Origin: Bacteriovoracaceae bacterium
Lineage (GTDB): Bacteria; Bdellovibrionota; Bacteriovoracia; Bacteriovoracales; Bacteriovoracaceae
NCBI GenBank assembly: GCA_017858255.1
Contig: JAFMBV010000033.1
Coordinates: 1 to 33,918 of the forward strand
Direction of reading: 5' to 3'
Length of the DNA stretch: 33,918 nucleotides
Of this stretch, positions 16,782-22,308 are shown one piece after another. The position numbers and the translations under genes are program-made. How positions within the stretch are numbered: the first letter of the stretch is position 1; every line of letters starts with the position of its first letter. A model generated the notes under the pieces. It ran no database searches, was not told the DNA's origin, and saw only the letters and a list, made by a program, of their open reading frames with translations.

Positions 16782-17797
16782 TTGAACGATTTATCTCAAA
16801 TGATTTAACAAGAAAGAGGTGGCGTCGTTTTAAAACACGTAAGTCAGCCTTCTACTCATTAATAGCATTTGTCCTTATGGTCATTGGGACCATTACAGCT
16901 CCGATGTTGTCTAATAACAAACCGCTCTATCTCTCTTATAAGGGAAGTAGTTATTTCCCGGTTTTTGTTGATTATCATCCTCGAGACTTTGGTTTTGAGA
17001 ATACTTTGGTGATGAGCTACAAGAAATTGGAAGTAGGAGAAGGCGACACTATCGTGTGGCCGGTCATTAAGTGGAACCCTTTTGAGTCAAATGAAAGTGT
17101 TTATTCTTACCCATCTCCTCCGACGGCAACCAACATTATGGGGACTGATGAGTCTGGTCGTGATGTTTTTTCAAGGATTCTTTACGGGTTTAAATACTCT
17201 ATTTCATATGCCTTCTTAGTGTGGATTCTAAGTCTTTTCTTTGGTGTGACCTTTGGTGGCATCATGGGCTACTTTGGTGGAAAGGTAGATATGATTGGCC
17301 AGAGAATGGTGGAAGTCTTTAGTACCATTCCTACGTTTTTTCTCCTGTTAATTTTAATCAGTATCTTTACTCCTAATATGTTTCTCTTGGTCGCCATTTC
17401 ATCTATTTTTGGATGGGTGCCTATTAGCTATTATGTAAGGGGAGAGTTCCTAAAAAATAGAAAGAGAGAGTTTGTAGAAGCTGCTAGATCAATGGGTGCC
17501 AGAAATCGTGTGATTATTTTTAAGCACATTCTGCCAAATAGCTTAGTTCCGGTAATTACCTTTGCTCCCTTTGTGATTTCAAATAATGTTATTTCGTTAT
17601 CCATGCTCGATTATCTTGGTTTTGGCCTACCAGTTCCAACTCCCTCTTGGGGCGAACTATTGTCACAGGCCCAAAAACACTTCACGGTAGCCTGGTGGTT
17701 AGCTGTTTATCCTGCAGGTGCTCTATTTACGACACTCACTCTTTTAAATCTAATTGGTGAAGGTGTTAGGGATGCAATGGATCCCAATATGAATTAA
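16778..17797 (+). CDS. yejE: Peptide ABC transporter permease, YejE-like
   Basis: A 339-residue permease of the OppC/DppC class and the partner of YejB. Diagnostic YejE features: after helix 1, NNKPLYLSYKGSSYFPVF and the long periplasmic region to PSPPTATNIMGTDESGRDV, then ILYGFKYS, the EAA loop EFVEAARSMGARNRVIIFKHILPN, LDYLGFGLP and the C terminus EGVRDAMDPN. The start overlaps the yejB stop as ATGA. In YejABEF the complete system also needs the ATPase YejF. None is encoded on either side here, since the next ATPase is BtuD of the B12 operon, so this transporter must use an ATPase from elsewhere. The riboswitch begins only a few bases after the stop. Confidence 0.93.
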   Translation: MIERFISNDLTRKRWRRFKTRKSAFYSLIAFVLMVIGTITAPMLSNNKPLYLSYKGSSYFPVFVDYHPRDFGFENTLVMSYKKLEVGEGDTIVWPVIKWNPFESNESVYSYPSPPTATNIMGTDESGRDVFSRILYGFKYSISYAFLVWILSLFFGVTFGGIMGYFGGKVDMIGQRMVEVFSTIPTFFLLLILISIFTPNMFLLVAISSIFGWVPISYYVRGEFLKNRKREFVEAARSMGARNRVIIFKHILPNSLVPVITFAPFVISNNVISLSMLDYLGFGLPVPTPSWGELLSQAQKHFTVAWWLAVYPAGALFTTLTLLNLIGEGVRDAMDPNMN

Positions 17798-17802
17798 AGA
17801 AA

Positions 17803-17900
17803 GACGAAAAAAGTGAAGTCTGGTGAAAGTCCAGCACTGTCGCGCAACGGTAATTGAGTAACACTCATAAGTCCGAGCCTTTTCTCTGGAAACCAGTCCC
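17803..17900 (+). ncRNA. Cobalamin riboswitch, compact form
   Basis: The B12 box and core are clear: TGGTGAAAGTCCAGCACTG (17821-17839) forms the P3-type stem-loop, CGCGCAACGGTAA (17841-17853) is the conserved B12-box core, and AGTCCGA (17870-17876) is the 3' junction. Only 16 nt, containing the small hairpin GAGT-AAC-ACTC, separate the last two, so the large peripheral arms of many adenosylcobalamin riboswitches are missing. No terminator follows, and the btuB ribosome site (AGGA, 17906-17909) is immediately downstream. Control by hiding the ribosome site is therefore more likely than transcription termination. Bound cobalamin would be expected to repress btuB. Exact ends are approximate. Confidence 0.92.
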
Positions 17901-17914
17901 GCGTCAGGATACTT

Positions 17915-19735
17915 ATGAAAGCTGTTTTTCTCTTGTTTATTTTTTTCATTCAACTAACTTTCCCTCAATTAGTTTTCTCTAGTGAAGAACCAATTATCGT
18001 AACCTCAGAAAGGTTTAAGCGGGATTACTCACTAAGTACCTCAAGTATCTTAAAATATTCTGGTGAAGAAATAGAAAAAAGTGGCTCTACAAATGTCGCT
18101 GATTTCTTGAAAGGAATGGCCGGAATTAATCTTTTTACAAGTGGCGCTTTTGGAAAGGCGAGTTCGCTTTTTTTGCGTGGTACCTCCAATCGCCATACAT
18201 TAATTATGGTTGATGGCGTACGCATCACTGACTTAACGGCCATTGGTGGAGGCTCAAGACTAGAGTTCTTGAATACTCAAAATATCGAGTCTATTGAAGT
18301 GCTTAAGGGCTCTCAAGGGGTTTTGTATGGTGCAGAGGCAATAGGTGGTGTTATTAGAATTACCACGAAAAAGAAGACTCGAAATCAAGTTTTGGCCAAG
18401 GTGGGTTCCTATAAACAGCGCTCCTTGGGTGCCATTACGAATTTAGCTAGAGGTAAGGGACAGGCCGTTTTGTCTGTGTCTTACGATAAGGCCGAGGGCA
18501 TCTCGTCTTTTAATCAAGACAAAGTTTCAGTGGCCCAAGGTGAGGCCGAGAAAGATGGTTATGAAAACTTAAACTTAAGATTGAATGTCGGCCAAAAGCA
18601 TAACGGCCATGCTTATAAGCTTAATGGTCGTTATCAAAAATCTAAATCAGATTTTGACAGTGGAACTGGGGATGTTCTCGGTAATAAATCCAATTACCAG
18701 GCTTCTTCTGTGAGTTTTTCATGGTTAAAGTCTTTCTCCTCTTTAATTAATCCAAACTTCTTATTTGAAGAACGATTCGTTGAAACAGACTCTTCTGTCG
18801 TTTCTTCTAATGTGAACACTCAATATGTATATGAGGGCAGCACTTCACGGGCAGAGATAATTAATAAGGCCTATCTTTCAGAAAAATTGGATTTAATAAG
18901 TGGGTTAAGCTTTGAAAAAGAAAAGGCCAAGGCGCTCGATACTATTCTTCCGGTCGAGAAATCTCGTGAGAGAATTTCAGCATATGGTCACTTTCGCTAT
19001 GATCACTCCTTTGGGGAGAATGAATTATTTGCAGAGGCCGGTGGACGCTACGAAAATATTCAAGATGTAGAAGATGAGGGTCTTTATCGCTTGGCCCTTG
19101 GATTTAGAAAAGACGCCTATACTTTAAAGGTAAACCAATCCACAGGTTTTAAAAGTCCTAGTCTTTATCAGAGTTTTTCTTCTTTCGGCTCTCTTAATCT
19201 AAAAGTGGAGAAATCAAAGTCTCGTGAAATATCTCTCTTTTATAAAAGGTCTAAATTTCAAGGAGAGCTTACTTATTTTGATATCTTCTATTCTAACTAT
19301 ATTGATTTCGATGCTCTACTTAATCGATATGCCAACCTTGGTGCTCAAAACAATAAGGGGATAGAGTTAAGTGCTTCTAGTGTCTGGAAAGATTTGTCGT
19401 GGTCTATAAATGCTAATTTCTTAAGAGCGATTGATCCCACAACTGGGGAGTATGCCCTTAGGAGACCCAGAGAAAAATTTACGGCAAGTGTTGACACTCC
19501 TTTTGGAGAGAAGTTTAACCTTGGGCTTCAGGGCGTTTATATCGGAAGTCGTCAGGATACAGGCCATTTTAGAATGCCTTCCTACTTAAAGTTTGATGCC
19601 TTTGTGGGCTACAATGACAATGTGACTAGAGTGACACTTAATCTCAATAACATTCTAAATAGAAAGTATGAAGAAATTAAAAACTTCGGAACACCAAATA
19701 GAAACTTTTTGCTGTCCTTTGAAAGGACTATTTAA
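17915..19735 (+). CDS. btuB: TonB-dependent outer-membrane receptor, vitamin B12 type
   Basis: A 606-residue outer-membrane receptor that imports cobalamin using TonB energy. Residues 1-23 are a signal peptide; next comes the TonB box EEPIIVTSERF. The plug domain follows with SGEEIEKSGSTNVADFLKGMAG, LFLRGTSNRHTLIMVDGVRI and IESIEVLKGSQGVLYGAEAIGGVI. The remainder forms a 22-strand barrel; the C terminus ends FLLSFERTI rather than the usual terminal aromatic. Length matches BtuB. B12 specificity rests on the riboswitch directly upstream and the btuFDC genes that follow, not on ligand residues. ATG 17915 has AGGA five bases upstream. Its stop overlaps the btuF start by one base (TAATG). Confidence 0.93.
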   Translation: MKAVFLLFIFFIQLTFPQLVFSSEEPIIVTSERFKRDYSLSTSSILKYSGEEIEKSGSTNVADFLKGMAGINLFTSGAFGKASSLFLRGTSNRHTLIMVDGVRITDLTAIGGGSRLEFLNTQNIESIEVLKGSQGVLYGAEAIGGVIRITTKKKTRNQVLAKVGSYKQRSLGAITNLARGKGQAVLSVSYDKAEGISSFNQDKVSVAQGEAEKDGYENLNLRLNVGQKHNGHAYKLNGRYQKSKSDFDSGTGDVLGNKSNYQASSVSFSWLKSFSSLINPNFLFEERFVETDSSVVSSNVNTQYVYEGSTSRAEIINKAYLSEKLDLISGLSFEKEKAKALDTILPVEKSRERISAYGHFRYDHSFGENELFAEAGGRYENIQDVEDEGLYRLALGFRKDAYTLKVNQSTGFKSPSLYQSFSSFGSLNLKVEKSKSREISLFYKRSKFQGELTYFDIFYSNYIDFDALLNRYANLGAQNNKGIELSASSVWKDLSWSINANFLRAIDPTTGEYALRRPREKFTASVDTPFGEKFNLGLQGVYIGSRQDTGHFRMPSYLKFDAFVGYNDNVTRVTLNLNNILNRKYEEIKNFGTPNRNFLLSFERTI

Positions 19736-20544
19736 TGATGATGAAAAGTAAATTCAAGACTTTCTTTGTCTTGATGTTGATTACTGGAAATGCTTATAGT
19801 GCCATTATTTCCATGTCTCCTGCTATCACTGAGATATTATACGCACTTAATTTAAATGAAGAAGTTGTGGGCGTTAGTTCCTATTGTCAATATCCTGAAG
19901 AGGTAAAGAAAATCCCTAGAGTGGGAACACCTTTTTCTCCCCACTATGAAAAAATCGTAAACTTGAAGCCCACTGTTATTATTTCTCAAGATGTTGAAGA
20001 CTCAAAATTTTCTTCCATGATAGGAAAACTTGGCCTTAAATTAAAAAGTTATAAACTGACCACGCTAAAAGACATTAAAGACACCATTAGTATGATGGCA
20101 AAGGAATTAAAAAGTAAGGAATTAGCTAGTATCCAAGAAAGTTTTAAAAAATCAGAAAATGCCTTAAAAGATAAAAAATTAAAGGGCACCTTCTATGCAG
20201 TCATTAGTATAAAGGGCGAAGTTCCTAAGGTTTTGGGTTTTTCGCTTGCCTCAAAAGATACCTATTTAAGTGATATTGTCTCTCTGAGTGGACTCACTAA
20301 TGCGGCTCCTTTTAAGGAGGGTTATAAAGATATTTCCCTTGAAACCTTTCTTCGCCACCCTGCTGATTATCTCTTCATTTTTACTCGTGATAAAGGAGTC
20401 AAAGCTGAGGGGCTTGCGACGTTATTTAAAAAGAATTTCAAAATGAAGAATACCCCAAAAATTTTAGTATTAAAAAATGACTATGCCTTGATTCCTGGCC
20501 CAAGGATTTCTCTTCTTATGAAGGAGATTGCTGATGGACTATAG
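19735..20544 (+). CDS. btuF: Periplasmic cobalamin-binding protein
   Basis: A 269-residue soluble binding protein of the BtuF/FhuD (helical backbone, class III) family. Signal peptide to about residue 22 (GNAYS), with no lipobox Cys, so the protein is free in the periplasm. Family motifs: IISMSPAITEILYAL, VVGVSSYCQYPEEVKKIPRVGTPFSP, and YEKIVNLKPTVIIS. It takes cobalamin from BtuB and passes it to BtuC. Three ATG codons stand in a row (19735, 19738, 19741), any of which could start; AAAGGA (19722-19727) favours the first. The stop lies ten bases beyond the btuD start, showing coupled translation. Confidence 0.92.
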   Translation: MMMKSKFKTFFVLMLITGNAYSAIISMSPAITEILYALNLNEEVVGVSSYCQYPEEVKKIPRVGTPFSPHYEKIVNLKPTVIISQDVEDSKFSSMIGKLGLKLKSYKLTTLKDIKDTISMMAKELKSKELASIQESFKKSENALKDKKLKGTFYAVISIKGEVPKVLGFSLASKDTYLSDIVSLSGLTNAAPFKEGYKDISLETFLRHPADYLFIFTRDKGVKAEGLATLFKKNFKMKNTPKILVLKNDYALIPGPRISLLMKEIADGL

Positions 20545-21334
20545 CAAAAGTAGAATTTGTGGAGAAATAAGAAATCACAATGTTTTGATTGGAAGTTGTC
20601 ACATTGTGAAAAATATCAGCTTCTCTATCACCGCCGGTGAGACATTAGTAATTATGGGCCCCAACGGAAGTGGAAAAAGTACCCTTCTAAATTCAATGGC
20701 AGGCACTCATGCCACAGGTCTCACTATTGAAAATGAAGCATTCGAAATTCAAGGAAAGGATGTCAATTCTCTGGATCTATTTGAGCGTTCTAACCTCTTC
20801 TCTATCGTGCCTCAATTTCCCGAATGGCAATCAGGGCTCTCTGTAGAGAAATATTTCTACTTTAGTCGTTTTAATCATTTAAGGGCAATGGGTGGAGAAG
20901 ACCTTGAACTCTTAGAGGAAATTATCACGGAACTTAAAATCAAAAATTTAATGAAGAGAAAGATGAATGAGCTGAGTGGGGGGGAACTAAAGAGGATCTC
21001 CATTGCCGCAGCTCTCTACCAAAATGTTCCGGTCGTTTTTCTTGATGAGCCATTTCAAGCTCTAGACCCACAAGTTAAAGATAGTTTGGCGAAGTTTTTA
21101 ATTTCTTGGCAAAAAAATAAAGGAACGACCTTTATTATGGCCTCTCATGATTTTTATTGGAGCTATAAGTTGGCCAGTAAGGTGGTTTTCTTAAAAAAAG
21201 GTGAAACTCTTTTTCAAGGAGATTTAGTGGACACCTTTACTTCTGAAAACTTAAAAAGTGTTTATGATATAAATTTTGAATGGGTGAGCACTGCTAATAA
21301 TGAGGGATTCTTTCACCCGGTAGGTTCACTATAA
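20534..21334 (+). CDS. btuD: Cobalamin ABC importer ATPase
   Basis: The ATP-binding subunit powering B12 import, 266 residues. Walker A GPNGSGKST (42-50), signature LSGGELKRISIAAAL, Walker B VVFLDEPFQALD and the H-loop ASHDFYW are all intact, so it should be active. A TTG at 20528 would add two residues, but AAGGAG (20521-20526) seven bases before ATG 20534 marks the start. It overlaps btuF by 11 bp. The stop TAA (21332-21334) shares bases with the proposed ATA start of btuC. Other iron-siderophore type ATPases look similar; operon context supports B12. Confidence 0.94.
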   Translation: MDYSKSRICGEIRNHNVLIGSCHIVKNISFSITAGETLVIMGPNGSGKSTLLNSMAGTHATGLTIENEAFEIQGKDVNSLDLFERSNLFSIVPQFPEWQSGLSVEKYFYFSRFNHLRAMGGEDLELLEEIITELKIKNLMKRKMNELSGGELKRISIAAALYQNVPVVFLDEPFQALDPQVKDSLAKFLISWQKNKGTTFIMASHDFYWSYKLASKVVFLKKGETLFQGDLVDTFTSENLKSVYDINFEWVSTANNEGFFHPVGSL

Positions 21335-22308
21335 AAAAAATATTTTTAACACTTATCCCCATCTTCATTTTTCTTTTAGTCCTGTCTTATGGAAAAGAGG
21401 GCTTTGTGTCTCCTCTTTCTTCTAATGAGCTTGATAAGGTTATTTTCTATCAGTTAAGACTTCCAAGAGTATTACTTGGTCTTATCGCTGGAGCAATATT
21501 GGGAGGGGCTGGACTCGTCTTTCAAAGTCTTTTTCGAAATAATTTGGCCAGCCCTTATACTTTAGGGGTTTCTTCTGGGGCGGCCTTTGGTGCCAGCTTG
21601 GCGATCTCCTTACAGGCATGGCTTGGGCTATCTTTTTCTACGACCATATTGTCTTTTGGATTTCCTGGCCTGATGGCCTTCTTGGGCGCTCTTATAACGA
21701 TTGGCTTTATCTATCTTATTGGTAAGACCAAGCGAAACTTTCATCCGAGCGTTCTTATTCTCTCCGGTGTTGTGGCGAGTTTTTTCTTCTCAAGCTGTAT
21801 TGTCTTTCTTCACTTTATGAATGATTCGTATAATACCAAAAAGATCATTCAATGGACGCTTGGTGATCTTTCAGTACTTGGGTTCGATGTGTTTTGGGTG
21901 ATTATTCCGGTCTTTATATTCTTTACTCTTTATCTTTTGAAAATGAGCCTATCGCTAAATGTGATGGCCATTGGCGATAACTTTGCCATTAGTAGGGGTT
22001 TAAATATTCAGAGATTAAGAATGGAGCTTTTTATTCTAATTAGTCTTTGTGTGAGTATTATAATCTCTTTTACTGGACCGATCTCCTTTGTTGGTCTTAT
22101 TGTTCCCCATATTGTGAAGAAACTTTGGGGCGTGGATTTTAGAGAGAATATTTTCCCAACACTAGTTTTTTCGGGGGTATTTCTTATCTTCTGTGATTTT
22201 ATTGCTCATATCATGGTCCCTTCAATGATCTTACCCGTCGGAGTTATTACTTCGTTCTTGGGTGGGCCTTTCTTTTTGTTACTCATTTTAAAGGGTAAAG
22301 AAATTTAG
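21331..22308 (+). CDS. btuC: Cobalamin ABC importer permease, unusual ATA start
   Basis: The membrane channel of the BtuCD importer (FecCD/BtuC family). Motifs: QLRLPRVLLGLIAGAILGGAG, FRNNLASPYTLGVSSGAAFG, and IVPHIVK near the BtuD-contacting loop. The first conventional start codon in frame is GTG 21406, which would remove the whole first membrane helix. In-frame sequence upstream encodes KKIFLTLIPIFIFLLVLS, exactly the missing helix, but contains no ATG, GTG or TTG before the in-frame stop at 21301-21303. The best start is ATA at 21331 (then AAA AAA ATA TTT), with TAGG six bases upstream, overlapping the btuD stop as ATAA. Starting there gives 325 residues, against 326 for E. coli BtuC. A sequencing error at that base is possible. 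Confidence 0.88.
   Translation: MKKIFLTLIPIFIFLLVLSYGKEGFVSPLSSNELDKVIFYQLRLPRVLLGLIAGAILGGAGLVFQSLFRNNLASPYTLGVSSGAAFGASLAISLQAWLGLSFSTTILSFGFPGLMAFLGALITIGFIYLIGKTKRNFHPSVLILSGVVASFFFSSCIVFLHFMNDSYNTKKIIQWTLGDLSVLGFDVFWVIIPVFIFFTLYLLKMSLSLNVMAIGDNFAISRGLNIQRLRMELFILISLCVSIIISFTGPISFVGLIVPHIVKKLWGVDFRENIFPTLVFSGVFLIFCDFIAHIMVPSMILPVGVITSFLGGPFFLLLILKGKEI

Follow-up and report, generated by a model that had tools for sequence, protein, structure and literature searches.

A conserved ATA codon in the btuD-btuC overlap as the putative start of a BtuC-type permease gene in Bacteriovoracaceae

The permease gene of a predicted vitamin B12 uptake operon from a Bacteriovoracaceae bacterium raises the question of where its translation begins. 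The window, meaning the whole 33,918-nucleotide stretch of DNA that was analysed, carries a btuC frame that is open from a TGA stop at 21301-21303 through a TAG stop at 22306-22308, and its earliest ATG, GTG or TTG is the GTG at 21406. The first hydrophobic helix of the permease, KKIFLTLIPIFIFLLVLS, is positioned 5' of this codon. A reading made from the window alone (the sequence-only reading) had noted the open frame, the lack of a conventional start before the helix and an ATA at 21331 that lies six bases after TAGG and shares bases with the btuD stop codon; the coordinates agree on every point, with TAGG at 21321-21324, AGG at 21322-21324 and 6 nt between AGG and ATA. We compared the locus with those of related genomes. 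The genus comprises seven genomes in the collection; a scan of contigs gave G002, G001 and G005, and the genome of the window is referred to as G000. The features of the locus are as follows.

17792-17914, plus strand: AdoCbl (B12) riboswitch preceding the operon (RF01482, 50.3 bits against a gathering score of 50)
17915-19735, plus strand: btuB-like gene for a TonB-dependent receptor (PF00593 and PF07715)
19735-20544, plus strand: btuF, periplasmic binding protein (PF01497, E 4.6e-17)
20534-21334, plus strand: btuD, ABC transporter ATPase (PF00005, E 2.3e-27)
21319-21325, plus strand: Shine-Dalgarno-like GGUAGGU with a single bulged U, separated from the ATA by 5 nt (6 nt counted from the last G)
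21331-21333, plus strand: ATA, proposed btuC start codon (same codon in G002; at the homologous column G001 has GTG and G005 has ATG)
21331-22308, plus strand: btuC, FecCD-type ABC permease, 325 codons plus stop (PF01032, E 1.5e-76)
21332-21334, plus strand: btuD stop TAA, overlapping the ATA as ATAA with two bases in common (same in G002)
21334-21387, plus strand: first membrane helix of BtuC (peak hydropathy of 2.27 over 19 residues; conserved in G002, G001 and G005)
21406-21408, plus strand: GTG, first conventional in-frame start, rejected as the start (ATC in G002)

The genes follow the riboswitch in the order TonB-dependent receptor, binding protein, ATPase and permease, making btuC the fourth gene of the operon. 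Its product passes the FecCD cut-off (PF01032, 257.8 bits vs 26.5), and solved BtuC chains align with it from residue 6-7 onward. The NCBIfam BtuC equivalog cut-offs were not reached (167 bits vs 461 and 160 vs 334), so the assignment to B12 transport is based on the AdoCbl riboswitch and the operon, and 'btuC' is used here as a functional label. The riboswitch match extends to the base immediately before the btuB ATG, and at its 5' end it overlaps the 3' end of another permease gene, whose stop codon ends at 17797; this placement suggests control of the translation start.

The junction of btuD and btuC was found again in a second species, G002 (L003/L032, MAG JAIPEG01, Bacteriovoracaceae), whose BtuC is 79% identical to that of the window. 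G002 carries an identical 19-nt junction, CCGGTAGGTTCACTATAAA, within a surrounding sequence that reads CCGGTAGGTTCACTATAAAG in G002 and CCGGTAGGTTCACTATAAAA in the window. In both species, the partner subunits are encoded in one operon with a 4-nt stop-start overlap (ATAA, 21331-21334 in the window). Four-fold degenerate sites are near saturation between the two species, with 35% identical in btuD and 39% in btuC; the final five btuD codons, all four-fold degenerate, match exactly. The 19-nt run belongs to the three longest stretches of identity in the 1.8 kb, the two others being 20-nt runs inside the genes, and taken alone it supports selection on the RNA only moderately. The first BtuC helix is conserved as protein in G002, G001 and G005, and the G002 btuC frame has no ATG, GTG or TTG until codon 93. 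The ATA is seen in only two genomes, both of them MAGs of uncultured bacteria. The comparison indicates that the ATA arose before the window and G002 lineages split, and that BtuC has been conserved as a protein since.

The start column itself was taken from a codon-level reading, as gaps distorted a MAFFT alignment of the junction DNA. Read in the btuC frame, the start region is AGG TTC ACT ATA AAA in the window, AGG TTC ACT ATA AAG in G002, AGG TTC TTA GTG AAG in G001 (BtuC 63% identical) and AGG ACT CTA ATG AAA in G005 (BtuC 51% identical), so that the column ATA/ATA/GTG/ATG stands 6 nt after an in-frame AGG in all four. The sequence-only reading had traced the ATA to a single G-to-A change in an ATGA overlap. 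A G at 21333 would indeed give ATGA and leave BtuD unaltered; with GTG at the homologous position of G001, the nearest outgroup, however, an ancestral ATGA is not required. We calculated the duplex between GGUAGGU and the anti-Shine-Dalgarno, for which the bacterial standard was assumed, at -6.9 kcal/mol in G000 and G002 alike. This value is beyond the best decile of random positions (-6.1) and falls in the stronger third of the first-ATG sites sampled in G000. The duplexes of the relatives are stronger, at -12.4 kcal/mol in G001 and -10.3 kcal/mol in G005, so no strengthened Shine-Dalgarno compensates for the AUA.

We evaluated the approach with infC, the IF3 gene, which served as a positive control. 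Its start is the classic ATT in G000, G002 and G005, preceded in G000 and G002 by GGAGG with a Shine-Dalgarno duplex of -13 kcal/mol in both; recovery of this codon indicates that an established non-canonical start can be picked up by reading conserved frames. G000 and G002 have the same initiator tRNA, which is of the standard type (CAU anticodon, C1/A72, GGG/CCC), and an altered initiator tRNA that decodes AUA was rejected on that ground. The stretches read, which cover part of the tRNA genes, showed no tRNA with a UAU anticodon. In sampled sequence of 1.22 Mb from G000 and 1.18 Mb from G002, 334 ortholog pairs showed a coding signature, and ten of them were picked out because conservation seemed to extend upstream of the first conventional start common to the pair. 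On inspection, btuC, the gene of a 259-aa protein with ATT and one doubtful case remained; the rest were judged to be antisense-type ORFs, genes with acceptable starts or alignment artefacts. Only btuC and the one ATT gene are thus clearly without a shared conventional start among the pairs sampled. ATAA or ATAG occurs in the same geometry at ten other sampled gene pairs; in every one of them a conventional start follows 3 to 51 nt later, and btuD-btuC is the exception.

The gene for the 259-aa protein (G000:C207:156514-157293, plus strand; ortholog G002:C24:45365-46141) occurs in each of the seven genomes of the genus. In G000 and G002 the conserved sequence sets in precisely at ATT AGA, with no shared conventional start nearby, and the protein seems to begin with ATT in both species; it gave no Pfam or NCBIfam match. 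A 232-codon frame (G000:C81:13853-14548, minus strand, with an ortholog on G002:C2) shows some conservation before its first ATG (FFLLPSG/FFLLPTG) and has ATC or ATT after an AGG upstream of that ATG. This may reflect a further non-canonical start or else a conserved leader.

Two of the three explanations offered by the sequence-only reading concern the single base at 21333. An error, with a true G at this position, might be suspected in a window that is a single draft contig from a 207-contig assembly, but G002 is an independent assembly that differs at approximately a quarter to a third of the bases in these genes and has the same base within the same 19 nt; we regard an error as virtually inconceivable. 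A recent mutation that impairs or abolishes btuC function in this strain draws on the poor performance of AUA as a start in most reporters. Against it, the ATA is older than the split from G002, a species near saturation at silent sites, both frames are intact with mostly synonymous differences, and the amino-acid identity of 79% contrasts with 35-39% at four-fold sites, making this explanation extremely improbable. Independent errors or recent mutations at one base in both genomes are not credible, and both options are refuted. The third, weak initiation like the infC AUU, is the surviving one, and the infC genes of this lineage do have ATT; the weakness at btuC is a prediction.

The remaining alternatives accept the ATA and place the beginning of BtuC elsewhere. 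GTG is a normal start codon, and translation from GTG 21406 or a conventional codon further in would need nothing unusual; the sequence-only reading had named, as grounds against an ATA start, relatives that begin BtuC at this GTG and lack a first helix. G002 instead has ATC there, and the upstream helix is conserved and aligns with the N-terminus of solved BtuC, leaving such a start exceedingly unlikely. The sole other near-cognate codon common to the window and G002 around the site is a second in-frame ATA at 21340-21342. Initiation there is very unlikely in spite of its conservation, as its distance of 15 nt from the AGG is too great for the Shine-Dalgarno to act, it would lose the two lysines before the helix and it falls in a different column from the GTG and ATG starts of the relatives. 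The main surviving rival is a -1 slippage near the end of btuD that would yield a BtuD-BtuC fusion and make a start codon unnecessary. The btuC frame is in the -1 frame, open before the ATA for 9 codons in G000 and 10 codons in G002, and both protein ends would be cytoplasmic. The overlap has no slippery heptamer in either species, however, and isolated tetramers differ between them; folding of the junction RNA was no better than that of shuffles, with no conserved structure detected (z of -0.01 and -0.65, the G002 stretch ending soon after the junction); and the Shine-Dalgarno-spaced GTG and ATG starts of G001 and G005 favour separate proteins. We consider a fusion unlikely. Transcript slippage on an A run was also rejected, the A8 of the window being AAAGAAAA in G002. 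An AlphaFold model from four sequences had a mean pLDDT of 40 and was excluded from the evidence.

The feature is real and conserved, and the comparison across species is best read as a natural AUA start. In our assessment, btuC very likely starts at the AUA of 21331-21333 with ordinary fMet-tRNA, by the action of ribosomes finishing btuD. A ribosome done with btuD would halt at the UAA of 21332-21334, with GGUAGGU close to its anti-Shine-Dalgarno. After termination, this ribosome or its 30S subunit would move one base back, as in an AUGA overlap, and the CAU anticodon of fMet-tRNA would pair with the A and U of AUA, leaving the third base mismatched. The resulting BtuC would begin with Met and contain the whole of the first helix. 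We expect initiation at this codon to be weaker than at AUG and to drop as IF3 rises; weak, IF3-sensitive initiation is probable, and we infer it from sequence, along with initiation at the AUA and the coupling to btuD. The known transporter is a 2:2 complex in which BtuC and BtuD are needed in equal numbers, and there is thus no obvious reason for a weak btuC start. In Bdellovibrio, a member of the same broader group, an ATG-to-ATA mutant of bd0108 behaves, in some assays, much like the deletion (PMC3818213), indicating that AUA can be close to null. Coupling of translation through 4-nt overlaps by termination-reinitiation is established for ATGA/AUGA overlaps (PMC10666635, PMC6728339). IF3 represses non-canonical starts (PMC5472188), and overproduced IF3 represses reinitiation that lacks a Shine-Dalgarno (PMC2268962). 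A more far-reaching proposal is that the lineage has kept a few conserved AUN starts besides infC (the btuC AUA and the AUU of the 259-aa protein), and that AUA-UAA is a dedicated reinitiation site tying the permease to btuD translation and the IF3 level, a translational valve atop the AdoCbl riboswitch; we hold this to be a doubtful, speculative possibility.

Non-AUG starts, AUA included, and 4-nt overlaps are both known; an AUA within a stop-start overlap looks new, and the AUAA combination was not found in the limited collection of literature searched. Gene callers limited to ATG, GTG and TTG would drop the first helix of the BtuC of the window and about 93 residues in G002, and an intact B12 uptake system could be annotated as defective. 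The conserved AUA is also a natural case in which to ask whether ribosomes that reinitiate tolerate a wider choice of start codons than those initiating afresh.

Several known systems share elements of the junction. IS911 orfB has an AUU start near the end of orfA, a near-cognate codon overlapping the upstream gene; IS911 is a mobile element with a programmed frameshift in the orfA/orfB overlap region, whereas the btuD-btuC junction has no frameshift motif. The closest match in codon is in S. aureus, where infC, ccpN and citZ have natural AUA starts served by the ordinary bacterial initiation machinery, as proposed for btuC; such starts are used and conserved, that of ccpN being described as conserved, and reach about 10-30% of AUG in reporters (PMC13009471). 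The S. aureus sites have extended Shine-Dalgarno motifs and were mapped by ribosome profiling, whereas btuC has a moderate Shine-Dalgarno and a start predicted from sequence; the btuC AUA overlaps the btuD stop, an arrangement not described for the AUA sites of S. aureus in the passages of that report covered here. The AUU of E. coli infC, with IF3 autoregulation (PMC5472188), has a third-base mismatch to the initiator tRNA like that of the btuC AUA, from which IF3 sensitivity is expected, but btuC does not encode a translation factor, and no feedback loop is evident for it. Streptomyces sigR has a conserved, IF3-repressed GTC start in a translationally coupled pair of partner proteins (PMC5472188), much as proposed for btuC; in contrast, the sigR codon is on the upstream gene and was shown experimentally, and btuC is the downstream gene with a start proposed from sequence. 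ATGA overlaps (PMC10666635, PMC6728339) have the same 4-nt geometry and join subunits of one complex in the same operon, as do btuD and btuC, but they combine an AUG start with a UGA stop, where the btuD-btuC junction combines an AUA start with a UAA stop and its coupling is predicted.
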